A stretch of DNA of 39,533 nucleotides from Chloroflexota bacterium (GTDB taxonomy: Bacteria > Chloroflexota > Dormibacteria > Dormibacterales > Dormibacteraceae). The stretch lies in assembly GCA_005889135.1 (NCBI GenBank), contig VBEK01000149.1, positions 1-39,533 of the forward strand, read 5' to 3'. This document shows, piece by piece, positions 8,872 to 36,143 of this stretch; within the stretch, counting starts at the first letter, position 1, and each line of letters begins with the position of its first letter. The translations under genes and the position numbers were made by a program. The notes under the pieces are model-generated. The model was not told the DNA's origin. It was given only the letters and a program-made list of their open reading frames with translations, and ran no database searches.

Positions 8872-9158
8872 TACTTGCCTGGAGGTGCGCCCTGCGCGCT
8901 CGCGGCATCTGCGGCGATGGTCACGCGCCGGCGATCCTTGCCGACACGCTCGTACTTCACGTGGCCGCCGACCAGGGCGAACAGCGTGTCGTCGCGACCC
9001 ACGCCTACGCCGGGGCCAGGTGTGATCTTCGTCCCGCGCTGGCGGACGATGATCTGGCCCGCGTTGACCAGCTGGCCGCCGAAGATCTTGACGCCGAGCT
9101 TCTGCGGGTTCGAGTCGCGGCCGTTGCGGGACGAGCCGCCGCCCTTCTTGTGTGCCAC
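8871..9158 (-). CDS. rpmA: 50S ribosomal protein L27
   Basis: 95 residues, GTG start overlapping the rplU stop by one base (TAGTG). The sequence [20 protein letters not shown] and '[31 protein letters not shown]' is textbook L27. L27 reaches the peptidyl-transferase centre with its N-terminus. There is no cleavable N-terminal extension of the Firmicutes type. The C-terminal tail ([13 protein letters not shown]) is a little longer than usual. Confidence 0.97.
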
Positions 9159-9703
9159 TACTTCGACTCCTTCCTGGACGCGCGTTTCCGGGCCGGCTTC
9201 TTCTCGGCCGGCTTCTCTTCCTCAGCCTCGGCGACGGGCTCCACCTCGGCTGTGGCCTCGGCCTTGACGGGTGCCGCCTTCTTCTTGGGAGCCGCCTTGG
9301 CGCGTCCGCGCGCCGGCTTCTTCTTCGCGGCCGGCTTCTCCTCCTCTTCCTCTTCCTCGGTCGCCAGACCGACACCGCCGACGGCGATGATCTCGAGCGC
9401 CGTCAGATATGCGCGTCCGCCCGCGTGCACGCGCACGCGCTTCTTCGACTTGTAGCGAAGGCTCTCGATCCTCGGCCCGCGGCGATGGGCGATGACCTTG
9501 GCCTCGACGTCGAGACCTTCGATCGCGGGATTGCCCACCTTGATCTCGTCGCCGTCGCTGAACAGCAGCACACGCCCGAGCTTCACCGACGATCCAGGCT
9601 CGGCCGCCAGCCGGTCGACCAGGATGCGGTCTCCGGGAGCAACGCGGTACTGCTTGCCTCCGCTGACGATGACGGCAGACGCGGAACTATCGGGCTTGGG
9701 CAC
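9158..9703 (-). CDS. rplU: 50S ribosomal protein L21 with basic/acidic tail
   Basis: 181 residues from the GTG at 9703 (a TTG at 9721 is possible but would lie over the -10 box). The core has '[20 protein letters not shown]', '[15 protein letters not shown]', '[13 protein letters not shown]' and '[18 protein letters not shown]', matching L21. The core ends near residue 110. A tail of about 70 residues follows, rich in Glu (EEEEEEE), then Ala-Lys-Pro blocks such as '[20 protein letters not shown]'. L21 is normally about 100 residues, so the tail nearly doubles it and resembles histone-H1-like tails. First gene of the L21-L27-Obg-NadD-RsfS operon. Confidence 0.95.
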
Positions 9704-9711
9704 GGCGTGAG

Positions 9712-9717
9712 ATTGTA
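9712..9717 (-). promoter_or_regulatory. -10 box of rplU operon, leaderless spacing
   Basis: On the minus strand TACAAT (5/6 to consensus) lies 8 bases before the GTG at 9703. Transcription would start at or next to this GTG, which favours it over the upstream TTG as the true rplU start. Confidence 0.55.
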
Positions 9718-9746
9718 CCAAGACCCGGAGCGTCGCCCGGCCGCGC

Positions 9747-10550
9747 TCACCGCATCAGGACCGAGGTGGCCACCACGATCGCGAGCACGAGCGCCGCGAA
9801 GGGAGCGATCCCGCGGGTATAGAGGCCGCGGGCTACGGCGCTGCCCCTCCAGCGCAGAAAGATCGATAGCGCCACAACCACGGCCGCCACCCCGAACGTG
9901 AGGCCGAAGAAGCGCAGGAGCCCAAGCGCGTCGTCGCCCGAGGGGGTGATGAAGAGCGTCGTGAACAGCCCGCAGTACGGGAGCCAGCCAAGGATGCGGC
10001 CTGTGTCGAGCCTCTGCCGGACGCGCTTGTCCGCGGGTCGTGTGACGGGCCAGAGGCGCAGCAGCGCGGGCAGGCAGAGCAGATAGAGGAACGCGCACGA
10101 GATCTTCACCGGGAGGAGGCCCGGCACGAGCAGGTTGCCGAGCGCCTGGGGACGGAGGCTTTCGGGCTGTACAGCAGGTCCGAGGACGGCGAGCAGCCAG
10201 CACATCTGGACGATGAGCAGCAGACCCGGTGCGGCGACGAACTCGACCGTGAGCGCCAGCTCGGCCCACGCGGTGAACGAGAGCGCCACCGCCGCGAGCA
10301 CGACGCTGCGCTCGTCCCCTGGGACGGGGTTGAAGGGCGCGTCCAGCTGCACCGCGGCCACGACCGAGCACAGGGCGACCGTCGCCACCACCGGGCTCGG
10401 GCGGCGTCGGGGGAGCTCCGGCCACTCTCGCTTCGCCACGCGCATCCGCGCCAGCTCGACCAGGACCCCGAAGGCGGCCATGGCCGCCAGGCCCGGGTAC
10501 AGGAGCAGCGCCGCCGCATGGGCGAGGAGGCCGAGGAGGACCTGGATCAC
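9747..10550 (-). CDS. NuoH/HyfC-like polytopic membrane protein, divergent
   Basis: 267 residues, GTG overlapping the previous stop (GTGA). About 7-8 hydrophobic segments. The C-terminal part 'LSIFLRWRGSAVARGLYTRGIAP' resembles the NuoH end (helix, R-x-x-x-R, then a last helix), and the N-terminal 'VLVELARMRVAKREWPELPRRR' is in the place of the NuoH 'ERKvlarmQ' segment. The conserved acidic loop of NuoH (PFDLPEAESELV) is not recognisable; 'LWPVTRPADKRVRQRLDTG' stands in its place. The call rests on position as last gene of a HyfB-E-F-C-like set and weak similarity seen by eye. It could be an unrelated membrane protein. Confidence 0.45.
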   Translation of the reverse strand: MIQVLLGLLAHAAALLLYPGLAAMAAFGVLVELARMRVAKREWPELPRRRPSPVVATVALCSVVAAVQLDAPFNPVPGDERSVVLAAVALSFTAWAELALTVEFVAAPGLLLIVQMCWLLAVLGPAVQPESLRPQALGNLLVPGLLPVKISCAFLYLLCLPALLRLWPVTRPADKRVRQRLDTGRILGWLPYCGLFTTLFITPSGDDALGLLRFFGLTFGVAAVVVALSIFLRWRGSAVARGLYTRGIAPFAALVLAIVVATSVLMR

Positions 10551-11590
10551 AGCCGCGCCCCCGCGAGCAGCGGGAGGGGATACAGGCCGGCGGCGACGTT
10601 GAGCGCGAGCACGAGCGCCACACCGAGGGCCTGCCTGCCGCGCGGTAGGCCCATGCTCCGGCCCAGGCGCAGCGAGCCCGGCAGCCACAGCAGCATGACG
10701 AGGGCCAGGACAAGCGCGAGCGGCCAGAACAGCTGCGTCGCGCCACGGAGCAGGAGCACGCGCGCGGCGAACCCGGCGAACGGCGCCGAGCCGGCCAGAG
10801 CCGCCGCCACGAGGAGGTTGACCGGCCGCTCGGTCACGACCCTGTCCTTGCCCGCCTGGCGCGACGCGAGATAGAGCGGCAGCCGCCCCAGGACCACCGT
10901 GAAGAGCACGAGCAGGGCCGCGCGCCGGCCGTCGGCCAGGGTCAGGCCGAACCCGCACAGGGCGAGGCCCCAGTCAGCGACGAAGGAGTAACGCCACGCC
11001 GCGCCGTTGCTCTCGGTAAGCCACGCGGCGAGGCTGCCCCACGCCATGTTCACCACGCCGAGGCCGATGAGCACCGCGCCGAACGCCGCGCCGGCGTCGG
11101 CGGGGAGCAGGCCCTGCGCGCCGGCGACGATAACGGCCGCCAGCACGGGCCCGACGAAAGCGAGCCAGCCGATTGGCGACGCGGTCACCGGCTCCTCGGG
11201 ATCGAACACGTGGAGGTACGGCAGCAGACCCAGGGCCGCGGCGAGCCCGGCGCCGAGACCCACGGCCGCGAAGCGATGGATGAGCTCGGGACCTCCCACG
11301 CGGGCGAAGACCGCGGCCAGCGCCAGCAGGGCGACCGCGACCCCGGGGGCCTTCAAGCACGCGGCTGTGGGGCGTCTGCCTTCCAGCGCGGCCTGAAAAA
11401 CGGCAAGGAGCACGAGCACGAGGAGAGCGAGGTCGAAGGTGGGCACGGCGGCCACCGCGGCCGTCCCCGCCAGGCCCGCCCCGCCCTGGAGCGCAAGACG
11501 CCGGCGAGGTGACCTGTCCGGCATGAAGACGAGGGCGATCGCCAGGGCGAACGCGGCGAGGGCGAGAAGCTCGATCGACTCAGGCAGCAC
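10547..11590 (-). CDS. NuoN/HyfF-like antiporter-type subunit, degenerate
   Basis: 347 residues, GTG start, overlapping the upstream gene by 11 bases. About 10-11 hydrophobic helices. Family landmarks can be recognised: 'GLLPYLHVFDPEEPVTASPI' (residues 121-140) corresponds to the 'KAGLxPLHxWLPxAHPxAPxPxSA' block. 'AWRYSFVADWGLALCGFGL' (198-216) corresponds to 'LLAYSSVxxIGxxLLGLGL'. 'AALAGSAPFAGFAARVLL' (263-280) corresponds to 'LSLAGxPPFxGFxxKxLL'. The lysine expected five residues before the first Pro is Ala (A119) and the last-block Lys is Arg (R278). It is shorter than NuoN or HyfF (about 480-520). Likely a structural or altered-transport relative; function unknown. Confidence 0.55.
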   Translation of the reverse strand: MLPESIELLALAAFALAIALVFMPDRSPRRRLALQGGAGLAGTAAVAAVPTFDLALLVLVLLAVFQAALEGRRPTAACLKAPGVAVALLALAAVFARVGGPELIHRFAAVGLGAGLAAALGLLPYLHVFDPEEPVTASPIGWLAFVGPVLAAVIVAGAQGLLPADAGAAFGAVLIGLGVVNMAWGSLAAWLTESNGAAWRYSFVADWGLALCGFGLTLADGRRAALLVLFTVVLGRLPLYLASRQAGKDRVVTERPVNLLVAAALAGSAPFAGFAARVLLLRGATQLFWPLALVLALVMLLWLPGSLRLGRSMGLPRGRQALGVALVLALNVAAGLYPLPLLAGARL

Positions 11591-12119
11591 GCTGCACTCG
11601 GCCGGGCGCCCAGGTCACCGCCACGGCAGCGCCCGCGCCGGCGAGGAACGGCCAGACGCCGGCATCGGCGCCGAGCGCAGCCCCCGCGGCGACCGCCAAC
11701 GCAAGCACCGCGAACGCCGTCTGGGCTACCGATGTGTCGGCACTCGAAAGCGCCCGCGCGCCGGCGAGGCCCACCCCGGACATCACCGCGAAGCGAAGCG
11801 CCGCACCCTCGCCGGTCATGACCTCGAGGCCGACCCACAGGGCTAGGAGACCGCCGGCGACGCACAGGATCAGGCGTGGCGTGGAGCCTGGCGGCAAAAT
11901 CCCCCACCCACCTGGCCCCGCGGTGAACCGCCTTGCCGCGGCCACCGCCCCCCCCGCGACCAGCGCCAGCGCGCCCGCCGGCCCGGCCTCCGGCAGGGCG
12001 ACCCCGGCGAGGCCGGCCGCCGCGAGCAGCGTGCCCAGCGCCAGCCCGCGCCGCGCGTCCGACAGGACGACGAGTGAAACCCCGAGCCAGGCCACGAACG
12101 CCGCCGCTACCTCGACCAC
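11580..12119 (-). CDS. Small membrane protein in HyfE-like position
   Basis: 179 residues, GTG at 12119 overlapping the upstream stop by one base (TAGTG). Composition is Ala/Leu/Gly/Val-rich with about six hydrophobic segments and almost no polar loops. There is no motif that I can tie firmly to a family. Its position between a HyfB-like and a HyfF-like gene, and its size, fit HyfE (about 216 residues; NuoK-like C-terminus), but no NuoK glutamate pair is obvious. The HyfE assignment is context only. Confidence 0.5.
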   Translation of the reverse strand: MVEVAAAFVAWLGVSLVVLSDARRGLALGTLLAAAGLAGVALPEAGPAGALALVAGGAVAAARRFTAGPGGWGILPPGSTPRLILCVAGGLLALWVGLEVMTGEGAALRFAVMSGVGLAGARALSSADTSVAQTAFAVLALAVAAGAALGADAGVWPFLAGAGAAVAVTWAPGRVQRAA

Positions 12120-13771
12120 TAGCGGGTGACTGCGAACCCGAGCGCGATGAGCGCGCCCAGCCACAGCACCGGCCGGCCGCCGGCCGCGGCCACCTCGAGC
12201 CCGCGCAGATTGAAGAGCGTCCGGTACTGCTCCGGCACCGTCGCCGCGCGCAGCAACTCGCTCACCCGGGCCGCGACGGCCGCCGCCGGGACCTCGAACG
12301 CAGCCGGGCGGGGCTGGGTCCGGATGGCCGCCGTCCCCGAGATCGCGTAAGCCGCCACGCCGAAGGCCAGCAGCGGCACGAGCAGGGTGATCGCGGGGAG
12401 CACGCTGGAGACGGTCACCACGTTGAGCAGGCCGCCGGCCAATGCGCCGCCGAGTGCCGGCATGACCTCGGCGGCGACGGGGTCGGCGTAGGCAACCTTG
12501 ACCGCGGCTATCGCCGGCCCAGCGGCCAGGGTGATTAGGGCGATGACCAGCGACACGCGGGGAAAGGTCTCAGCCGTCGAGTGGCCGCGCCCCGCAGGCA
12601 GGCCGATGGCGCGCGCGCCGCCGACCATCCAGGTGGCCCAGGTCACCATGCCTGCGATCCCGACCAGGCCGAGGAAGTCCCCCGCCTCGAACGTGGCCTC
12701 GATGCCGAGGACGCGCGCACCGAAGGCAATCCCCGGTGGCAGCCCCACGGCCGCGGCGATCGTGACCAGAGAGGCGATGCCGGCCTGGTCGGGCAACAGC
12801 GCGAGCCCGGCGATCAGCAAGGAAGCCGTCGCCAGCAGGATCAGCCCCGCGACCAGCCCGAGCGGCGTGCCCATCGCGATCGCGGCGAGCGCGAATCCGC
12901 CCATCCCCGGAACCAGCTCACCGAGGAAGCGCCTGCGGGTGGGCGCGGCCTGGGCGCGCGCCGCGGCGGCGAATGCGGCGGCGATGCCGATGGCCGCCAG
13001 AACGACGTTGAACAGCACGTGTGGGTACCGGCCGTCCCCGAGCTCATACGCACGCACGAACAGGTAAAAGCCGAGCGGGTAAAGCGTTGCGACGGTGACG
13101 CCGGCGGCGCGAAGCGAAGGTCGCGACCAAAGCTCGGCCGGCCACGTCCGCCAGGGAAAAATGCACGAAACCAGCACCGCCGATGCCGCGAGCAGGGTGA
13201 ACAGCGGCCCGGTGACGGTCGCGACCGGGACGGCGGAGAAGACTGCGGTGCCTCCGCCGACCTGAAGGATGACGCCGAACCAGCTCAGCGCGAGCCAGCC
13301 CGCGAGCAGCATGGCCCAGCTCGGGCGCGACGCGCGTGGATCCTCGGTGTCGAGCAGGATCATCGCCAGCGTGGCGGCGGTGCCCCCGGCGATCGCGGTC
13401 AGGACGACGCCGCCGGCCTCGACCGCGAAGACCGCGGAGGCAAGGGCGAGCAGCGAAACCGCGGCCTGAGGCCATGCTCGCGGCTGCAGCGTCAGCAGGA
13501 TCGCGGTGGGGGTGGCGATCATCAGGCCGAACGCGAACGTCACCCCATCGATCCGCATGTCGAACGAGGAACCAAAGCCGAGCGGGCCGAGCGCGAGCTC
13601 GAGCGACGACCTGATCGGGGCCCAGACGACGATGAGCGCAAGCACCGAGCCCCACGAGCCGATCGCCGCGGCCGCGCGGCCCAGGTCCATGCCTCCGAGG
13701 CCGATCAAGGCGATCACTGCGGCCGCGACCAGGGGCAGGAGGACAGGGACGATGACGGCGACAGACGGCAT
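12119..13771 (-). CDS. NuoL/M/HyfB-like antiporter-type subunit, degenerate
   Basis: 550 residues, ATG at 13771, 8 bases after the valS stop. About 14 hydrophobic helices. 'LAASAVLVSCIFPWRTWPAE' (194-213) occupies the place of 'xxxTKSAQFPFHxWLPDA', and 'VATLYPLGFYLFVR' (227-240) that of 'SATMVKAGVYLLAR'. 'AAAVGLPPGIAFGARVL' (339-355) matches 'LSLAGLPPxxGFxxKxx'. The TM7 Lys is Val (V201), the TM8 Lys is Pro or Tyr, and the later Lys is Arg (R353). The usual 'WE' glutamate of TM5 is also not found. So the fold is that of proton-translocating complex I / Mrp / hydrogenase-4 subunits, but key residues appear lost. Alignment was by eye. Confidence 0.6.
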   Translation of the reverse strand: MPSVAVIVPVLLPLVAAAVIALIGLGGMDLGRAAAAIGSWGSVLALIVVWAPIRSSLELALGPLGFGSSFDMRIDGVTFAFGLMIATPTAILLTLQPRAWPQAAVSLLALASAVFAVEAGGVVLTAIAGGTAATLAMILLDTEDPRASRPSWAMLLAGWLALSWFGVILQVGGGTAVFSAVPVATVTGPLFTLLAASAVLVSCIFPWRTWPAELWSRPSLRAAGVTVATLYPLGFYLFVRAYELGDGRYPHVLFNVVLAAIGIAAAFAAAARAQAAPTRRRFLGELVPGMGGFALAAIAMGTPLGLVAGLILLATASLLIAGLALLPDQAGIASLVTIAAAVGLPPGIAFGARVLGIEATFEAGDFLGLVGIAGMVTWATWMVGGARAIGLPAGRGHSTAETFPRVSLVIALITLAAGPAIAAVKVAYADPVAAEVMPALGGALAGGLLNVVTVSSVLPAITLLVPLLAFGVAAYAISGTAAIRTQPRPAAFEVPAAAVAARVSELLRAATVPEQYRTLFNLRGLEVAAAGGRPVLWLGALIALGFAVTR

Positions 13772-13779
13772 TGGCCCGT

Positions 13780-16353
13780 CTAGTCTTGCGCGTTCAGTCT
13801 GTCGAGCGCCTCTTGGAGTCCGGCGGCGCGCTCCTCGAGGTTCGCCACCACCTCGGGCGGCGCCTTTTCCTGGAACTGTGGGTTGTTGAGCTTGGCCCGG
13901 GTCTTGGCCAGGTCGTCCTCGAGGCGCTTGCGTTCTTTGTCGCGCCGAGCGTCGCCCTGTCCCGACGGGAAGCGGACGCGGCCGGGCGCGGACGCCAGCG
14001 GGGTGCCGCCGTCCATGTCGTCCACAAGCTGCACCAGGGCAAGCTTCGCGACGAGCCGCGACACCGTGCCGCTTACCTCGTCCAGCCGAAGCTCGCCTCC
14101 GCGCTTCGGCGCGCCCGCGGCGTTGCGGTGACCGCGGACCTCGTCCACGATCGCCATCACCTGCGTGAACTCCTCCTCCGCGCCGGGGTCGACGTAGCGG
14201 TCGTGCAGGTCTGGCCACTCCGCGCGCATCAGGTAGTCCCGACGGCCCGGCAGTCGCGACCAGAGCTCCTCGGTGACGAAGGGCATGATCGGATGGAGCA
14301 TGCGGAGGAGGTTGTCCAGGCAGAAGAACGCGACGTCTTGCGCCGCCGGGTCGCCGTCGCGCAGCCTGTCCTTGACCGCCTCGAGGTACCAGTCGCACAG
14401 CTCGTTCCACGCGAACCCGTACGCGGTGTTGACCGAATCCTGGAACGTGAATTCTTCGATGCCCCTCGTGACTTCGCGGGCGGCCACGCACAGGCGGGAG
14501 AGGATCCAGCGGTCCTCCAGGTGCTCGCGCGCCTCGAGGCTGCCCAGCGACCCCGACGGCGTGCCGGGAGAGCCCAGGACGAGACGCTCGGCGTTCCACA
14601 GCTTGGTGCAGAACCGGCGGTAGCCCTCGACGCGGCTTTCGTCAAAGCGGACGTCCTGGCTCGACATCGCGACGGACGTCGCCCAGGCGCGCAGCGCGTC
14701 GGCGCCGTACTTCGTCATCAGGTCGCGCGGGTCGACGCCCGTGCCCAGCGACTTGGACATGCGCCGACCGTCAGCGGCCTGGACGACGCAGTGGATGACC
14801 ACGTCGGAGAAAGGCACATCGCCCATGAGCTCGATCCCGGTCATGATCATCCGGCTTACCCAGAGGTTGATGATCTCCCGGGCCGTGCAGTTGATGTCCG
14901 TCGGGTAGAAGGCCTTCAGGTCGTCGGTGTCGTCCGGCCAGCCCAGGGTCGCGAACGGCCACAGCGCGGACGAGAACCACGTGTCGAGCACGTCAGGGTC
15001 CTGCTCGAAGCTCTCGCTGCCGCATTCGGCGCACTTCGTGGGTGGCTCGACTGACACGATCGTATGGCCGTTTGCGCAGCGGTAGACGGGCACGCGGTGG
15101 CCGAGCCACAGCTGCCGGCCGATGTTCCAGTCCCGCAAGCCGCGCAGCCAGTCGAGGTACGTCCGCTCGTAGCGCTCGGGGTGCCATCGCACCCTGCCCG
15201 CCTCCGAGGCGGCGATCGCGTTGTCACGCAGCTCGCCCATGCGCAGCCACCACTGCTCGCTGATCAAGGGCTCGATCACGTAGTGGCAGCGGTCGCAGTG
15301 GCCCACCTCGTGCGTGTAGGGCTGCTCCTTGACGAGCAGACCCTCGGCCTTCAGGTCGTCCACGACTCGCTTGCGCGCCTCGAGCGCCGGCAGTCCGTCG
15401 TAGGGCAGGCCCGGCACGTTCATGCTCCCGTCCTCGTGCATGCCGTTGACGATCTCGAGGCCGTGGCGCTGCCCGATCTCGTAGTCCAGCGCGTCGTGCC
15501 CAGGCGTGACCTTCAGGGCACCGGTGCCGAACTCCTTCTCGACCGCGTCGTCGCCAACGATCGGAAGCGTGCGGCCGACCAGAGGCAGGACGGCTGTCCT
15601 GCCGATCAGATCCTTGTAGCGGCCGTCATCCGGGTTCACCGCCACGCCGGTGTCTGCGAGCATCGTCTCCGGGCGCACGGTCGCGATGGTCACGTCGCCG
15701 CCACCTTCCAGCTGGTACTTGATGAAGTACAGCGTGTCCTGGTGCTCCTGCCACTCGACCTCGAGGTCCGAGATCGCGGAGCGGTCGTGCGGGCACCAGT
15801 TGACGATGCGCGGCGCGCGGTAGATCCAGCCCTTCTCGTAAAAGGCGACGAACGCCGTCATCACCGAGCGGTAGTAGCGCGAGTCCATGGTGAAGCGCAG
15901 ACGCGTCCAGTCCATGGACGCGCCCTCCAGGCGCAGCTGGTTGATGATCGTCGCGCCGACCTCCTCGTACCACGCGTCGACGCGGGCGTCGAACTGCGCG
16001 CGACCAAGCTCCTCTTTGGTCGTGCCTTCGCGGGCGAGCTGCTTTTCGATCACGTTCTGGGTGGCGATGGCCGCGTGGTCGTAGCCGGGGAGGAACAGCA
16101 CCTCGTAGCCGGCCATCCGCTTGTACCGCGCCAGCAGGTCGTAGATCGCCGTCTGCAGCGCGTGTCCCATGTGCAGCTCGCCGGTGATGTTCGGCGGGGG
16201 GAAGCACATGGTGAACGTCTTCTTGTCCGTGAATGGGTCGGCGACGAACAGGCCGTCGGCCTCCCAGCGCGCGTACCAACCGGCCTCGATGGCCTGCGGG
16301 TCGAACGCCTTTGGCATCTCTGACTCTTTGGTTATGGGGCGTGCTTCATCCAT
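13780..16353 (-). CDS. valS: Valyl-tRNA synthetase
   Basis: 857 residues, ATG at 16353 (an internal ATG at 16317 is possible). '[16 protein letters not shown]' carries the HIGH-type motif (HMGH, residues 61-64); 'GRRMSKSLG' near residue 530 is the KMSKS motif. The editing domain ('[20 protein letters not shown]', '[15 protein letters not shown]'), zinc-type cysteines ('CDRC', 'CANGH', 'CAEC') and the C-terminal coiled-coil arm ('[20 protein letters not shown]') are all present. It charges tRNA-Val. Four membrane-protein genes follow within 8 bases or overlap, so they probably share its transcript. No T-box was recognised upstream. Confidence 0.97.
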
Positions 16354-21664: not shown

Positions 21665-23866
21665 TCAGGGGCAGGGAACCGGGGGCACGCTCGGCGAAGG
21701 GCACGGCGATGGAACCGGGCTCGCCAGCACCGGCCCCGTCCCGGGGTCGGCCGGCACCACGTGGGAGGGACCGCTCGGCGTCGGGCTGGGCGGATTGTCG
21801 CCCGGCAGCTTTTCGACCTTCGTCGTGTCCGCGAGGTACCAGCTGTTGTTCGGGCCCGCCACGACGCCGGGCGGTGCGGTGTACCAGCGGTTGCCGGGTA
21901 CCCCCGCCAGCGCCTGGGACACGAAGGTGTGCACGCCGGGCGAGGCCACGAAGACGCCGTCCGAGCCGGCCACCATCACGTGGCGGTTGTCGAGGATGTC
22001 GCCAACCCACAATCCAGTCGCGAGGTCGGGCGTGAACGCGATGGTGACGGCGTCCTTGAAGTTGTCGGTCGTGCCCGTCTTGGCGGCGACGGTGCGGTCG
22101 CTCCAGTGCAGCGCGCTGTTGCAGCCGAAGATCATGCAGCGGTTCTGGTCGTCGGCCATGATCTGGGCCATGATGTACGCGACCGCGGGATCGATCGCGA
22201 GCCGAGCCCGCTGGTCGGGGTGGGTGCTGTACAGCACGGTGCCGTGCGAGTCGGTGACCTTGAGCACCGCCTCGGGCGAGTGGTAGATGCCCATGTCCGC
22301 GTAGGTCGCGATGCCCTCGACGTGCTCGAGCAGCGTGATCGGGTAGCCGCCAAGCGTCAGCGAGGGACCGTACTGGTCAGGCGGCGCGGTCGCGTTGTAC
22401 GCGCCGTCCTGCGCGATGTAGCGCGGAAAGACGTTGAGGTTGCGCATCCAGGTCAGCACCGCCGGCACTCCGATCGAGAGCTCGACCTTGACCGCGGCGA
22501 TGTTGAGCGAGTTGCCCATCGCCTTCTTCAGCGGCAGGACTCCGTGGGTCTTGCCGTCGTAGTTGTAGATCTTGGTCGTGCTGTACGCGTCCTTGTAGAC
22601 AAGCGGGCTGGGCCCGTCGTACACGGGCGTGTCCACGGTCGCCGCACGCGCGTTGATCACCGCCCCGTACGTGTAGGGCTTCATCGAAGAGCCCATGTTG
22701 CGAGGGATGGTCGTGTAGTTGATCTGGCCGCCAGTCGAGTTGTAGCTCGGCGACCCGACCATGACCAGGATGTTGCCGGTCGTGGGCTGGACCGCCACCA
22801 GGCCTGACGAAAGCGCGCCGTTGCGGTCGCGCCAGAGGTTGGCGTTCAGGTTGCTGCTGACGACCGCCTCGCCCTTCTGCTGCATCGACCAGTCGAGGGT
22901 CGTCTGGACGTTGAGCTGCTGCACGCCCGGTTGGAACCCGAGCTGACGCAGCTCGGCGAGGACGTAGTCGACGAAGTGCGGCGCCTTGAAGCTGTTGATT
23001 GGAGAGTAGTAGGTGAGCTTCTCCGCGAGCGCCTTGTCCATGTCTTCCTGGGAGATGTAGTTGGCGCGGACCATGGCGCGAAGCACCTCGGCCTGGCGGA
23101 CCTTCGCCTGGTCAGGGTGGAGGGCGGGGTTCCACTCGGTCGGCGCCTGCGGAAGGCCGGCGAGCATCGCCGCCTGAGCGAGGTCGAGCTTGGAGGCGGG
23201 GACCTGGAAGTAGCTCTGCGAGGCGGCCTCGATGCCGTACGACTGCGAGCCATAGAAGCTCTTGTTCAGGTAGAGCTCCATGATCTGGTCCTTGGAGTAG
23301 GTCTGGCTGAGCTCGTAGGAGAGGGCGAGCTCTTTGATCTTGCGGCTGACCGATTGCTCGGGCGTCAGGAACTGCTGCTTCGCGAGCTGCTGCGTGATCG
23401 TGCTCCCGCCGCCCACGATGTGGCCGGCGCGGAGGTTGTCGAATGCGGCCCGCACGATGCCCGCGAGGTCGAAGCCGGGGTTGGTGTAGAAGCCCCTGTC
23501 CTCGATCGCGACCGTCGCCAGGACCGCGACCGGGGCCACGTCCTTGAGCTTGACCGCGAGCCGGTGGTCGCCGTGGTTGCCCACGTCCGCGAGGATCACC
23601 TTGCCGGTGCTGTCGGTGATCAGGGTGTCGCCGGCGAACGCGGCCGAGTCGAGGCCCTGGATCGAAGGCAGGCTGTCGAAGAAGGACTGGGCGTAGGCGT
23701 CGGCCGCGAGGCCGATCACCAGCATCACCGCGAGCGCCCCGCCGAGGCCGCGCAGCAGCGCCGTGCGGCGCATCTTCTGGCCGATGGGCGACCACGCGGC
23801 GTGGATCCGCGCTCGAGGGCTGTGGCCCCCCTTCGTCTTTATCCGCTCAGGAACGTTTCGAGCCAT
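21665..23866 (-). CDS. Class A penicillin-binding protein (PBP1A-type)
   Basis: 733 residues, ATG at 23866. Basic cytoplasmic N-terminus, a single membrane helix at about residues 38-58, then a GT51 glycosyltransferase domain with 'IEDRGFYTNPGFDLAGI' (catalytic Glu122) and 'GGSTITQQLAKQ'. The transpeptidase domain shows 'GSSMKPY' (SxxK nucleophile), 'GNSLNIA' (SxN) and 'AAKTGTTDNFKDA' (KTG). A Pro/Ser-rich tail of about 45 residues ends the protein. It polymerises and cross-links peptidoglycan at the outer face of the membrane. All key residues are intact. It is followed by tig and preceded by a broken flippase gene. Confidence 0.94.
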   Translation of the reverse strand: MARNVPERIKTKGGHSPRARIHAAWSPIGQKMRRTALLRGLGGALAVMLVIGLAADAYAQSFFDSLPSIQGLDSAAFAGDTLITDSTGKVILADVGNHGDHRLAVKLKDVAPVAVLATVAIEDRGFYTNPGFDLAGIVRAAFDNLRAGHIVGGGSTITQQLAKQQFLTPEQSVSRKIKELALSYELSQTYSKDQIMELYLNKSFYGSQSYGIEAASQSYFQVPASKLDLAQAAMLAGLPQAPTEWNPALHPDQAKVRQAEVLRAMVRANYISQEDMDKALAEKLTYYSPINSFKAPHFVDYVLAELRQLGFQPGVQQLNVQTTLDWSMQQKGEAVVSSNLNANLWRDRNGALSSGLVAVQPTTGNILVMVGSPSYNSTGGQINYTTIPRNMGSSMKPYTYGAVINARAATVDTPVYDGPSPLVYKDAYSTTKIYNYDGKTHGVLPLKKAMGNSLNIAAVKVELSIGVPAVLTWMRNLNVFPRYIAQDGAYNATAPPDQYGPSLTLGGYPITLLEHVEGIATYADMGIYHSPEAVLKVTDSHGTVLYSTHPDQRARLAIDPAVAYIMAQIMADDQNRCMIFGCNSALHWSDRTVAAKTGTTDNFKDAVTIAFTPDLATGLWVGDILDNRHVMVAGSDGVFVASPGVHTFVSQALAGVPGNRWYTAPPGVVAGPNNSWYLADTTKVEKLPGDNPPSPTPSGPSHVVPADPGTGPVLASPVPSPCPSPSVPPVPCP

Positions 23867-31236: not shown

Positions 31237-32014
31237 TTTCGAGATCAAAGACCTGCGGGCGAGCGTCGAGGGACGTCAGATCCTGAAGGGCGTTTCGCTC
31301 GCGATCAACAAGGGCGAGGTCCACGCGGTGATGGGCCCGAACGGGTCGGGCAAGTCGACGCTGTCGCACACGTTGATGGGTCACCCGGGCTACACGGTCG
31401 ACGGCGGCGAGGTCCGCTTCAAGGGCCAGAACGTGCTCGAGCTCGAGCCTGACGAGCGCGCGCGGCTCGGCATGTTCCTCGCGCTGCAGTACCCCGTGGT
31501 CGTGCCGGGGATCTCGATGGCCAACTTCCTGCGCACGGCGCTGAACGCGCACCGGGGCTACGACGGGAAGGACAAGTCGAAGATGGTGACGCCGAAGGAG
31601 TTCCGCTCGCTGCTGAAGGACGAGCTCGAGGTGCTGCACATGGACGATTCGTTCCTGTCGCGGTACATCAACGACGGCTTCTCGGGCGGCGAGAAGAAGC
31701 GCGCGGAGATCCTGCAGATGGCGGTGCTCAAGCCCGAGATCGCGATCCTCGACGAGACCGACTCCGGCCTGGACATCGACTCCATCAAGTTCGTGGCGGA
31801 GGAGGTCAACCGCATGCGGGGGCCGAATCTCGGCGTCCTGATCATCACGCACTACACGCGCGTCCTCGAGTTCATCAAGCCGGACTTCGTGCACGTGCTG
31901 GTCGACGGCAAGTTCGTGCTGTCGGGCGGGCCCGAGGTCGCTGACCGGTTGGAGAAGACCGGCTACTCGGAGTGGGGCAAAGAGGAAGCCGCCCAGCCCC
32001 AGGAGGTTGCCTGA
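31229..32014 (+). CDS. sufC: Fe-S assembly ATPase SufC
   Basis: 261 residues, TTG start with a good Shine-Dalgarno. Walker A 'GPNGSGKST', the SufC signature '[15 protein letters not shown]', and Walker B '[14 protein letters not shown]' are all intact, as is the switch His in 'IITHYTRVL'. SufC drives SufBCD scaffold remodelling using ATP. Here sufC precedes sufB, rather than following sufD. The stop and the sufB ATG overlap (TGATG). Confidence 0.97.
32001..32006 (+). promoter_or_regulatory. Shine-Dalgarno of sufB
   Basis: AGGAGG 7 bases before the sufB ATG at 32014, within the end of sufC. Confidence 0.75.
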
Positions 32015-33423
32015 TGGCCACACAGCCCAAGCTCGACGTCGGCGTCGACTATAAGGACAAGTACGGCTTCTTCTTCCCCGAGGACTACGTCTTCAAGGCC
32101 AAGCGCGGCCTGAACCCGGAGGTCGTGAAAGAGATCTCCTTCATGAAGGGCGAGCCGGAGTGGATGACGAAGTTCCGCCTGCGCTCGCTCGAGATCTTCC
32201 GCAAGAAGCCCATGCCCAACTGGGGCGCGGACCTGTCTGTGATCGACTTCGAGAACATCTTCTACTACCTCAAGCCCGCCGAGAAGCAGTCGGCGTCCTG
32301 GGAGGAGCTTCCGGCCGACATCAAGGCGACCTACGACCGTCTGGGCGTGCCCGAGGCGGAGCGCAAGTTCCTCGCCGGTGTATCGGCGCAGTACGAGTCA
32401 GAGGTCGTCTACCACTCGCTGCAGGAAAACCTGACCAAGAAGGGTGTGATCTTCCTGGACACCGACTCCGCCCTGCGCGAGCACCCTGACCTGTTCAAGG
32501 AGTACTTCGGGACCGTCATCCCGCCCGCCGACAACAAGTTCTCCGCACTGAACAGCGCGGTGTGGTCGGGCGGATCGTTCATCTACGTCCCGAAGGGGGT
32601 CAAGGTCGACATCCCGCTGCAGGCGTACTTCCGCATCAACGCGGAGAACATGGGCCAGTTCGAGCGGACGCTGATCATCTGCGACGAGGGATCGTTCGTG
32701 CACTACATCGAAGGCTGCACGGCCCCGATCTACACGACCGACTCGCTGCACTCTGCGGTGGTCGAGATCATCGTCAAGAAGGACGCGCGCTGCCGCTACA
32801 CCACGATCCAGAACTGGTCGACCAACGTCTTCAACCTGGTCACGAAGCGCGCGATGGCGTACCGGGACGCGACGATGGAGTGGGTCGACGGCAACCTCGG
32901 GTCGCAGATCACCATGAAGTACCCGAGCGTCTACCTGATGGAGCCCGGTGCGAAGGGCGACGTGCTCTCGGTCGCGTTCGCCGGCAAGGGCCAGCACCAG
33001 GACGCCGGCGGCAAGATGATCCACGTCGCGCCCAACACGACCTCGACCATCACGTCGAAGTCGATCAGCAAGGGCGGCGGCCGCACCTCATATCGCGGCC
33101 ACATCAAGATCTATCCCGGCGCCAACAACGTGAAGTCGTTCGTCAAGTGCGACGCGCTGCTGCTCGACGACGAGTCACGCAGCGACACCTACCCGTACAA
33201 CGACGTCGACGCCGAGAACGTGACCCTGGGCCACGAGGCGACGGTGAGCAAGGTCAGCGACGAGCAGCTCTTCTACCTGATGAGCCGCGGCATCCCGCGC
33301 GCCGAAGCCGAGACGATGATCGTCAACGGCTTCATCGAGCCGTTCACCAAGGAGCTTCCTCTCGAGTACGCGGTGGAGCTGAACCGCCTGATCCAGCTCG
33401 AGATGGAGGGCTCGGTAGGCTGA
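32014..33423 (+). CDS. sufB: Fe-S cluster scaffold SufB
   Basis: 469 residues from the ATG at 32014, preceded by AGGAGG. '[20 protein letters not shown]', '[20 protein letters not shown]', '[14 protein letters not shown]' (conserved Cys) and '[20 protein letters not shown]', ending with the '[20 protein letters not shown]' type block, match SufB throughout. SufB accepts sulfur from SufS and SufU and builds clusters with SufC and SufD. Full length. Confidence 0.97.
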
Positions 33424-33425
33424 GT

Positions 33426-34619
33426 ATGGCCATCAACGCGGAAACCCTGGACCAGCTCCAGGGCGAACCGGGCTGGCTGCGCAACGTCAGGCGCAAGGCG
33501 CTCGAAAGCTACGAGCGGCTGCCGGCGCCCAGCAAAACGGACGAGGAGTGGCGGCGCACCGACGTCAGCGGCCTCGACCCGAACAAGTTCTCGAAGTTGG
33601 AACACCTGGACGGGCAGAAGCTGATCCTGCCCGAGGCGCTGCCGAAGGGTGTGATCCTGATGCCGCTGCGCCAGGCGGCCCAGGACCACCCGGACCTGGT
33701 CGAGCCGCGGTTGTTCTCCCTTGTGCACGCAGACCGCGACCGTTTCGCCGCCCTCCACGCGGCCCTCTTCACCGGCGGCACGTTTTTGTACGTCCCGGAC
33801 GGCGTTGTGGTCGAGCAACCGATCATCGGCCAGCACTTTTCGCACGAGGCGGGCACCAGCGTGCTGCCGCACACGCTGATCGTCGCCGGCCGCGGTGCGA
33901 GGTTCGACTACCTCGACGAGTACATCGCCGAGAACGAAGATGAAGCCGGCTACCGCACGGGCTCAGCCGAGATCTTCGTCGGCGAGGGCGCGCAGGTCGG
34001 CTACGTGGCGGTCCAGAAGTGGGGTCGCAACACGTGGCATCTCGCCGACCAGCGTGCGGAGCTTCAAAAAGACTCCACGCTGAGGCTGTTCAACGTGACC
34101 CTCGGCGGCAGATTCTCGAAGTCACGAGTCGAGGCTTCACTCGCCGGCGAGGGCGCCAACGCCGAGCTCAAGGCGATCTACCTCGCTTCGGGACAGCAGT
34201 TCTTTGACTTCCACACGCTGCAGGACCACCGGGTCGGCAACACCCGCAGCGACCTGCTCTTCAAGGGCGCGCTGCAGGACGTCGCGCGGACGGTGTACGC
34301 GGGCCTGATCCGGATCGAGAAGCACGCCGCCCGCTCCGACGCCTACCAGGCCAACCGCAACCTCGTCCTGTCGGACAAGGCCAAGGCCACCTCGATCCCC
34401 ATGCTCGAGATCGACAACAACGACGTCCGGTGCACGCACGGCGCGACGGTCGGCCCGGTCGACCCCGAGCACCTCTTCTACCTGCGCTCGCGGGGCATCC
34501 CCGAGCCGACCGCCAAGCGGATGCTCATCCAGGGCTTCTTCGGCGACGTCCTCGACCGCATCCCCTTCGAGCACGCGCGCAAGCTCGTCGAGGCCGAGCT
34601 GGAGGCCCGGATTGGCTAG
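33426..34619 (+). CDS. sufD: Fe-S cluster assembly protein SufD
   Basis: 397 residues, ATG two bases after the sufB stop. An N-terminal helical domain includes 'LRNVRRKALESYERLPAPSK' and 'TDEEWRRTDVSGLD', then the beta-helix core with 'GGTFLYVPDGVVVEQPIIGQ', and the C-terminal 'DNNDVRCTHGATVGPVDPEH' with the conserved 'CTHGATVG' (SufD His). It partners SufB in the SufBC2D complex. The stop overlaps the ferredoxin start by 8 bases. Confidence 0.96.
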   Translation: MAINAETLDQLQGEPGWLRNVRRKALESYERLPAPSKTDEEWRRTDVSGLDPNKFSKLEHLDGQKLILPEALPKGVILMPLRQAAQDHPDLVEPRLFSLVHADRDRFAALHAALFTGGTFLYVPDGVVVEQPIIGQHFSHEAGTSVLPHTLIVAGRGARFDYLDEYIAENEDEAGYRTGSAEIFVGEGAQVGYVAVQKWGRNTWHLADQRAELQKDSTLRLFNVTLGGRFSKSRVEASLAGEGANAELKAIYLASGQQFFDFHTLQDHRVGNTRSDLLFKGALQDVARTVYAGLIRIEKHAARSDAYQANRNLVLSDKAKATSIPMLEIDNNDVRCTHGATVGPVDPEHLFYLRSRGIPEPTAKRMLIQGFFGDVLDRIPFEHARKLVEAELEARIG

Positions 34620-34926
34620 CTACAAAGTGGCGACCGTCGGTGAGCTGCAGCCGGAGTCGATGAAGCGCGTCGACGCGGGCGGCACGCCGGTGTGCCTGGC
34701 CCACGCCGAGGACGGAAGCTTCTACGCCCTCAACGACATCTGCACGCACGAGGAGTTCTTCCTCAGCGACGGCGAGCTGTGGGGCATGGACGTCGAGTGC
34801 CCGCAGCACGGCTCGCGGTTCAACCTGCAGACCGGCAAAGTCACCGGTCTCCCGGCCGTCATCCCCGCCAAGGCTTACCCGGTGAAGGTCGAGGGCGAGG
34901 ACCTTTACGTCGAGGTGCCCGACTAG
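34612..34926 (+). CDS. Rieske-type [2Fe-2S] ferredoxin
   Basis: 104 residues, TTG start within the end of sufD. Rieske ligands: C44-T-H46 and C63-P-Q-H66 ('DICTHEEFFLS', 'VECPQHGSRFN'). The small all-beta protein resembles the ferredoxin subunits of dioxygenases and the Rieske proteins often found in actinobacterial and Chloroflexota suf operons. It may carry electrons for cluster assembly or repair. The stop overlaps the sufS GTG by one base (TAGTG). Confidence 0.93.
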   Translation: MASYKVATVGELQPESMKRVDAGGTPVCLAHAEDGSFYALNDICTHEEFFLSDGELWGMDVECPQHGSRFNLQTGKVTGLPAVIPAKAYPVKVEGEDLYVEVPD

Positions 34927-36143
34927 TGGCTGTCAGGACCCTCGACGTCACCGCGATCCGTCGCGACTTCCCCATCTTCGAGACGGGGATCGCCTACCTC
35001 GATTCCGCCAACACCTCGCAGCGGCCCCGCCAGGTGACCGGGGCGATGCTGGAGTACTTCGAGAAGTTCAACTCCAACATCCACCGCGCCGCCTACCGGA
35101 TCGCCGAAGAGGCGACGGTGCGCTACGAGGCCACGCGGGAGAAGGTGCGCGCCTTCATCAACGCCGCGTCGACCAGGGAGATCGTCTACACCCGCGGCAC
35201 GACCGAAGGCATCAACCTCGTCGCCTATGGGTGGGGCCGCAAGAACATCACACAGGGCGACTTGATCGTGCTGACGATCCTCGACCACCACTCGAACATC
35301 GTGCCGTGGCAGATCCTCGCCGCCGAGAAGGGCGCCCACATCGAATACGTCGACATCGACGAGAAGGGCGAGCTCCGCCAGGACCAGTTCACCGAGCTGC
35401 TGAAGCGCGGTCCAAAGCTGGTCGCCTTCAACCTGATCAGCAACGCGATGGGCACCATCAACCCCGCGCGGGAGATGGTGGCCGCGGCGAAAAAAGCCGG
35501 CGCCACCGTCCTGGTCGACGGCGCCCAGAGCACGCCGCACCAGCCGGTCGACGTCCGCGCCCTCGGCTGCGACTTCTACGCGTTCAGCGGCCACAAGATG
35601 CTCGGGCCGACGGGCGCGGGGATCCTCTACGGCCGGCGGGAGCTGCTCGAGGCCATGGATCCGTTCCAGGCGGGCGGCGACATGATCAAGACCGTCCGCG
35701 TCGAGGGCACGACCTACCACGAGCTGCCGTGGAAGTTCGAGGCCGGCACGCAGGCGATCGCCGAGGTGATCGGCCTCGGCGCCGCCGTCGACTACCTGAC
35801 CGACCTCGGCATGGACGCCGTTCGCGCCCACGAGCTGGAGATCACCGATTACGCCTATGAGGCGCTGTCCGACGTCGAGGGTCTGACGCTCTTTGGTCCG
35901 CCGCCCGCGCGGCGCGCGGGCGTCATCTCGTTTGCGCTCGACGGCATCCACCCGCACGACCTGGCGACCATCGCGGACCGCGACCAGGTCTGCCTTCGGG
36001 CGGGCCACCACTGCGCGATGCCGCTGATGACGCGGCTCGGCGTTCCTGCGACGGCCCGCGCGTCCTTCTACGTGTACACGCAGAAAGAGGAGATCGATCG
36101 GCTCGTAAGCTCGATCAAGGAAGCCCAGAGGATTTTCGCTTGA
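34926..36143 (+). CDS. sufS: Cysteine desulfurase SufS
   Basis: 405 residues from the GTG at 34926. PLP lysine in 'FYAFSGHKMLGPTGAGILYG', catalytic Cys in 'LRAGHHCAMPLMTRLGV', substrate segments 'YLDSANTSQRP' and 'RGTTEGINLVAYGWG', and 'VDGAQSTPHQPVDV' (PLP Asp). These place it in the type II (SufS/CsdA) class. One unusual detail is 'NTSQRP' where SufS normally has 'AASSQKP'. It takes sulfur from cysteine and passes it to SufU. The stop overlaps the sufU TTG (TTGA). Confidence 0.96.
   Translation: MAVRTLDVTAIRRDFPIFETGIAYLDSANTSQRPRQVTGAMLEYFEKFNSNIHRAAYRIAEEATVRYEATREKVRAFINAASTREIVYTRGTTEGINLVAYGWGRKNITQGDLIVLTILDHHSNIVPWQILAAEKGAHIEYVDIDEKGELRQDQFTELLKRGPKLVAFNLISNAMGTINPAREMVAAAKKAGATVLVDGAQSTPHQPVDVRALGCDFYAFSGHKMLGPTGAGILYGRRELLEAMDPFQAGGDMIKTVRVEGTTYHELPWKFEAGTQAIAEVIGLGAAVDYLTDLGMDAVRAHELEITDYAYEALSDVEGLTLFGPPPARRAGVISFALDGIHPHDLATIADRDQVCLRAGHHCAMPLMTRLGVPATARASFYVYTQKEEIDRLVSSIKEAQRIFA

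Follow-up and report, generated by a model that had tools for sequence, protein, structure and literature searches.

An orphan set of complex I-type membrane proteins encoded between valS and rplU in a family of soil Chloroflexota

In the general view, complex I arose when an antiporter-like membrane module was joined to a redox module resembling a hydrogenase. What does such a membrane module do when no redox module accompanies it? The question is raised by a stretch of 39,533 nucleotides (VBEK01000149.1, our contig C200, hereafter the window) from a Chloroflexota bacterium of the family Dormibacteraceae, which is a whole contig of a 2.95 Mb assembly that is 94.7% complete. Four membrane-protein genes, here named HB, HE, HF and HC, lie between valS and rplU, all on the minus strand and in that order after valS. 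A sequence-only reading had described four overlapping membrane genes following valS, and the genes, their strand, order and coordinates were all confirmed, with overlaps of 1, 11 and 4 nucleotides (nt) for HB/HE, HE/HF and HF/HC, respectively. The evidence supports an orphan complex I-type membrane set comprising two antiporter-like subunits, HB and HF, and one NuoH-fold subunit, HC.

Identity of the four membrane proteins

Judged by profile comparison, HB and HF are homologues of the antiporter-like subunits of the complex I superfamily (NuoL/M/N, MrpA/D, HyfB/D/F). Against a set of 19 antiporter sequences, hhalign scored HB at 98.0% with an expectation value (E) of 3e-13, or 99.3% and 2.6e-19 in another setting, and HF at 95.7% and 1.1e-8, while control comparisons with NuoH, HyfE, NuoJ and NuoK sets stayed below 1%. 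The one significant PDB sequence match of HB (hmmsearch) was MrpA (7d3u_A, E 4.1e-4). In a small test set HB also matched the NuoL of its own genome (1.7e-5) and E. coli HyfD (3.6e-4). In another such test the best match of HF was an MrpD-like gene (7.2e-11), the Mrp label being drawn from gene sizes and order. Compared with each other, HB and HF gave an E of 0.0013 and a probability of 18.7%. Structure searches were also made, a missing structural match having been named in advance as evidence against the assignment; structural matches exist, those listed for HC and HF all being complex I-superfamily entries. In the predicted HF model the broken transmembrane helix (TM) 12 seems still to be there, formed by helices 259-265 and 272-287.

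The label "hydrogenase-4-like" given by the sequence-only reading proved too specific. HB matches MrpA, NuoL and HyfD, and HF an MrpD-like gene. Two genomes of the family (G096, G085) have genuine hydrogenase-4-type genes, to which profiles of the set gave no match at E 0.1. "HyfE-like" for HE is likewise without sequence support: HE showed no convincing match to HyfE, NuoJ or NuoK, and its best hhalign values were 0.031 over 30 columns to HyfE and 0.024 over 41 columns to another Chloroflexota locus, L098. Its invariant residues in 29 sequences are W11, G13, R23, A27, G29, W72, S79 and T80.

The predicted model of HC has the eight-helix NuoH/ND1/HycD fold. By sequence, HC matched no Pfam or NCBIfam family and no PDB entry, and hhalign against NuoH gave an E of only 0.55. 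The NuoH loop with the acidic PFDxxEAE motif is apparently absent from HC, as the probable region is basic (Table 1) and the only acids conserved in at least 90% of 37 rows are E32, E80, D206 and D207. The proposed absence of this loop is one of the weaker claims: the conservation pattern fits, but the register rests on the insignificant alignment to NuoH, and the predicted local distance difference test score falls below 50 at residues 170-176. In E. coli HycD, changes of the loop residues E199, E201 and E203 are described as lowering H2 production by 99% (PMC9474812).

All four proteins fell below every family cut-off of Pfam, and NCBIfam named no family for any of them, HF being weakly similar to NDH subunit 4 (E 0.0047) and NuoN (0.44). 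The Pfam antiporter model PF00361 matched six places in the genome, three each on contigs C51 and C164 and none in the window. The set thus adds proteins unnamed by any Pfam or NCBIfam model.

Relay residues and redox partners

The proton-relay sites were mapped on NuoL by hhalign alignment, and the residues were then counted across the family in 38 HB, 37 HF and 37 HC rows (L069 excluded; L074 without HE, HF and HC). The lysines had been said to be replaced by Val, Ala, Pro or Arg, and this was confirmed at HB Val201, HF Ala119, both TM12 arginines and HF Pro148 (Table 1). Pro148, near the TM8 site, is invariant in 36 readable sequences, and all 37 HF sequences have I, L or V at the site of NuoL H338, near Arg236. 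The TM5 glutamate (NuoL E144) maps to HB 129-131 and HF 60, where an acid was found in no sequence counted. Lysines at shifted positions had been named as the observation that would count against the claim; HB has no conserved lysine elsewhere, its roughly 550 residues containing 0-5 lysines across the family, and the claim stands. The NuoL, NuoM and NuoN of the same genome retain Lys at the TM7 site. Therefore, GC-driven lysine loss alone does not explain the replacements.

Table 1. Coordinates of the genes and sites of the set in the window, with residue counts across the family (aa, amino acids; n, sequences counted).
Feature	Position	Strand	Description
HB	12119-13771	-	Antiporter-like (NuoL/MrpA/HyfB-type) membrane protein, 550 aa
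HE	11580-12119	-	Small membrane protein, 179 aa, at HyfE position
HF	10547-11590	-	Antiporter-like (NuoM/NuoN/MrpD-type) membrane protein, 347 aa, without first helices
HC	9747-10550	-	NuoH/ND1/HycD-fold membrane protein, 267 aa (fold from predicted model)
HB Val201	13169-13171	-	TM7 Lys (NuoL K229) site; A25 V4 G4 C2 T2 L1, n=38
HB Arg353	12713-12715	-	TM12 Lys (NuoL K399) site; Arg 35/37 ungapped, others L and W
HF Ala119	11234-11236	-	TM7 Lys (NuoL K229) site; A24 G6 V5 T1 X1, n=37
HF Asp206	10973-10975	-	Acid in YSFxADWG block, NuoL Q315 site; D 33, E 4, n=37
HF Arg236	10883-10885	-	NuoL K342 site; Arg 37/37
HF Arg277	10760-10762	-	TM12 Lys (NuoL K399) site; Arg 37/37
HC residues 164-184	9999-10061	-	Probable place of NuoH PFDxxEAE loop; basic, without acidic motif
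valS	13780-16353	-	Constant upstream neighbor of HB
rplU	9158-9721	-	Downstream neighbor of HC; then rpmA, obgE

No redox partner was found beside the set. PF00346 (NuoD/HyfG type) and PF01058 (NuoB/HyfI type) each match once in the genome, and both matches fall on the nuo contig C51 together with NuoA, H, J, K, L, M and N; this agrees with the claim that no NuoB/NuoD-type partner lies beside the set. Every one of the 42 family genomes has at least one match to each family. Catalytic subunits next to the set in relatives had been singled out as contrary evidence, and none of the PF00346 and PF01058 matches listed lay on the contig carrying the set in 39 genomes, a search that did not cover NuoI-type ferredoxins and PF00374.

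Occurrence, neighborhood and selection

Of the class, 110 genomes were searched and 39 gave an HB match; every one of these belongs to the family of the window (42 genomes of soil Chloroflexota bacteria), and the HC and HF profiles recovered the same 39. HB, HC and HF were not found in the other three genomes (G070, G077, G106), nor was valS at E<=1e-120, synthetase matches to valS there being weak (27-34% identical). Since valS is absent as well, the locus is missing from these assemblies. The HB profile was also run on 400 sampled genomes of the phylum, at most three candidates being scored per genome, so that remoter relatives may have escaped it; it matched 23 family genomes and gave three weak matches outside the family at E<=1e-5. 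Two of these lie in operons that are Mrp-like by gene size and order, and the third is an orphan HyfB/HyfE/HyfF-like trio of another Chloroflexota family (G126; L098 6157-10060), located near genes that read as FdhD- and MoeA-like; the frames read next to it include no catalytic subunit. Both the TM7 and the TM12 lysine persist in its HyfB-like protein, and the TM12 lysine only in its HyfF-like protein; HF aligned to the latter with an hhalign probability of 18.4%. A pattern scan of genome contigs returned seven loci, all 70-78% identical.

The order and strand of all four genes are kept in 37 of 38 relatives' loci, the contig of the last (L074) ending inside HB. By tblastn, valS is directly upstream in 35 of the 38, and the contigs of the other three (L072, L079, L081) start at HB. 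On the other side, 27 of the 38 loci include rplU: in 17 of them it lies less than 400 nt from HC and in one 1.4 kb away, and in nine the genes mreBCD-PBP2-rodA stand between HC and rplU. The steady neighbors seen are housekeeping genes only (valS, rplU, rpmA, obgE).

Window and five relatives gave ratios of nonsynonymous to synonymous substitution (dN/dS, Nei-Gojobori) of 0.135-0.313 for the four genes each, at dS values of 0.75-1.80 that are near saturation; eight closer pairs gave 0.065-0.279. Judged from these ratios, the four genes are held by purifying selection beyond chance. HF is 344-361 aa long in some genera and 388-409 aa in others, with the 11-nt overlap with HE mostly kept, and the short form apparently arose by deletion near the start. 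The alignments (A1-A4) comprised the window with 29/36, 28/36, 26/34 and 24/32 usable relatives, leaving out all four L069 genes, HB of L074, HF of L077 and L079, and HC of L046, L064, L067 and L080.

Some candidates were rejected. An apparent HB-HE fusion in G107 (L069) is a long frame caused by a frame shift close to where HB ends, as seen on reading the junction, and was set aside as assembly or frame noise. An rRNA operon as a 5.5 kb insert was dropped after a 16S motif found nothing. A role in the elongasome or cell shape, suggested by mreBCD-PBP2-rodA beside HC in nine relatives, was rejected on the distribution of mreB, which had no match at E<=1e-60 in 17 of 42 family genomes, among them that of the window. 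Sixteen of these 17 retain the set, which is thus independent of the elongasome; the remaining one, G070, lacks valS as well. In many of the 25 mreB-positive genomes the match is just a paralogue of 38-55% identity, and none of these counts comes from complete assemblies. The mre operon names were read from the translations of one example (L047 13132-18524), and the remaining eight were named by their similarity to it. The family may have lost cell-shape genes on several occasions. L077 has additional sequence between HE and HF in which parts of these two genes are repeated.

The same genome holds a second orphan module on contig C164 (L082 7947-14242, minus strand) with nuoJ/K/L/M/N-like genes, of which J and K were named by reading. 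Read from translations, the TM7 Lys is replaced by Arg in all three of its antiporter-like proteins. It is followed (L082 5007-7774) by genes that read as a penicillin-binding protein and a CDP-alcohol phosphatidyltransferase-like protein. Of 18 family loci (L082, L144-L160), 14 have the former behind the module, with one of the remaining four being too short, and 17 have the latter. Two loci of another family, f4 (L141, L143), show the same order.

Proposed function, known systems and alternatives

The four genes would form one membrane complex resembling a short complex I membrane arm, since a connector fold occurs with two antiporter folds, the genes mostly overlap, and HB, HF and HC have identical occurrence. 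HC would be the NuoH-fold end subunit, HF and HB the antiporter-like subunits and HE a small linker. Complex I-type pumping is unlikely, because there is no redox arm, no Lys relay and probably no acidic connector loop; lacking its own peripheral arm and relay, the set would not pump protons by the known mechanism. The conserved Arg and Asp/Glu may instead serve fixed salt bridges, not proton transfer. We propose that the complex conducts no protons and has a structural or gating role. A selected non-pumping module, likeliest a scaffold or an allosteric or gating membrane partner, is the account to which we give about half of our belief. The earlier suggestion of a non-pumping or repurposed complex thus holds as to the orphan set, the lysine loss and the unlikely pumping, but not as to its hydrogenase-4-like name.

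Several observations weigh against this account. HE belongs to no named family. The TM5 Glu site varies in known members and is Ala in the genome's own NuoL and one HyfF, so this site alone means little; some accepted antiporter-like members are without one relay site. E. coli HycC is described as lacking the TM7 Lys (Leu208) yet works within an active enzyme, and Lys or Arg on transmembrane helix 11 (TMH11) is described as a normal state (PMC9474812). Given these precedents, neither the loss of one such residue nor an Arg close to the K342 site is proof of inertness, and Asp206 (or Glu) of HF could carry protons. As to partners, PF01058 matches more than once in seven of 42 family genomes (G085, G086, G092, G093, G094, G096, G102) and PF00346 in three (G085, G087, G096), the second match in G087 being below cut-off. 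The second pair in G096 and G085 belongs to hydrogenase-4-type clusters. It is also possible that a partner was missed in the window's own genome at 94.7% completeness. The clusters of G096 (L108 4758-11690) and G085 (L109) contain hyfC-, hyfE- and hyfF-like genes with the large and small subunits, hyfB being seen in L108, and both genomes hold the orphan set besides.

Compared with known systems, the set resembles the membrane arm of respiratory complex I in the predicted NuoH fold of HC and the NuoL/M/N homology of HB and HF. It differs in having no NuoB/NuoD-type subunits with it, in the lost TM7 Lys and the Arg at the TM12 site, in the apparently absent acidic NuoH loop and in the truncated HF. 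It differs from hydrogenase-4/formate hydrogenlyase (HyfB/C/E/F; HycC, HycD) in the absence of HyfG and HyfI, in the order B-E-F-C and in its profiles, which do not match the hydrogenase-4-type genes of the two same-family genomes. Mrp antiporters (MrpA, MrpD) are not known to have a NuoH-fold subunit, whereas the set has four genes only, one of them NuoH-fold, and has lost the lysines; between valS and rplU in the window there is room for just four genes and not for an MrpA to MrpG operon. Streptomyces nuo2 (SCO4599-SCO4608) is a partial second complex I cluster of a function called unclear, and is similar in being a partial set alongside a complete nuo operon; it is stated to be without NuoCDEFG and NuoL, and we set it apart by this description, not by sequence (PMC9239103). 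In the CO2-hydrating DAB complex, DabB is likewise described as a NuoL-type membrane protein outside redox pumps, but DabB2 is described as keeping the NuoL proton-transfer residues, which the set has not (PMC13144422). The four genes leave no space for an adjoining DabA, for which no genome search was made. The main text of a survey that counts 2,171 species with incomplete complex I mentions neither Chloroflex nor Dormibacter (PMC12361115). Partial second nuo clusters (nuo2) and the reuse of single antiporter-like proteins (DabB) are known; our full-text searches of the open-access literature turned up no account of a set that is fixed in a lineage, includes a NuoH-fold protein, lacks a redox arm and has its relay dismantled.

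The set might be an alternative membrane part of another complex I-type assembly, either pairing with the C164 module or docking on the Nuo peripheral arm, which we regard as possible but unlikely. Cyanobacterial NDH-1 swaps membrane subunits in this manner. Strong matches to the C164 NuoM-type gene (at least 47% identity) occur in 40 of 42 family genomes. In 30 of 30 family sequences of this protein Arg stands at both the K234 and the K265 site, and no Glu is seen at the E144 site. NuoB, NuoCD and NuoH (E. coli queries, E 1e-5) were found at none of 23 loci of the C164-type module search, and the window set would provide the NuoH-fold protein. A hybrid machinery with ordinary nuo products has been suggested for Streptomyces nuo2 (PMC9239103). 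However, nuoKLMN-like orphan genes also occur in f4 (L141, L143) and f2 (L142), families without the window set; of their NuoM-type homologues L141 keeps both lysines, L143 one and L142 neither, while the match in L140 (f2) is a complete nuo operon and not an orphan. The C164 module is moreover less dismantled, the TM12-type Glu at the E407 site of its NuoM-type protein being kept in 21 of 29 family sequences, and HC seemingly lacks the acidic loop that would adjoin a redox module.

A redox-independent ion or solute conduit, with Arg and Asp lining a path for an anion or metabolite rather than protons, is rather improbable. In all 37 HF sequences two former Lys sites are Arg and position 206 is acidic, HB and HF are related to antiporter subunits, and no soluble partner gene adjoins the set; against this stand the purely housekeeping character of the steady neighbors and the small nonpolar residues now at the TM7 sites. 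More speculatively, and with little probability, the window set and the C164 module would be two halves of one redox-armless, complex I-shaped machine whose Lys relays were rewired to Arg/Asp for a redox-independent job such as anion or solute transport or potential sensing.

We think it quite improbable that proton translocation persists through replaced residues and water wires with a soluble partner encoded elsewhere. The broken TM12 of the HF model would suit it, as would precedents for a variable relay in HycC (TM7 Leu208; PMC9474812) and DabB2 (Ile151 at the Glu site; PMC13144422). Yet DabB2 is described as keeping the proton-transfer residues of NuoL (PMC13144422) and HycC as keeping Glu135 and Glu391 (PMC9474812), whereas here the TM5 acid and TM7 Lys are both gone and the TM12 site is Arg, in HB and HF alike. 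That the set is the decaying remnant of a hydrogenase or complex I cluster, as the loss of the first HF helices in several genera might suggest, is scarcely credible given HB, HF and HC in 39 of 39 genomes with the locus, dN/dS values of 0.065-0.313 and many invariant columns.

If the set is indeed a selected, non-pumping module with a NuoH-fold connector, no redox arm and no proton lysines, it amounts to a pump whose key residues nature itself has knocked out. With it one can ask what role the fold has without pumping and which residues serve pumping only, and an ancient pump part has seemingly been turned to another job.

An Rfam scan of the window matched nothing. Other genes seen in the window are a class A penicillin-binding protein (21665-23866, minus strand), two SufB/SufD-type genes (31972-34619, plus strand) and a class V aminotransferase (34692-36143, plus strand).

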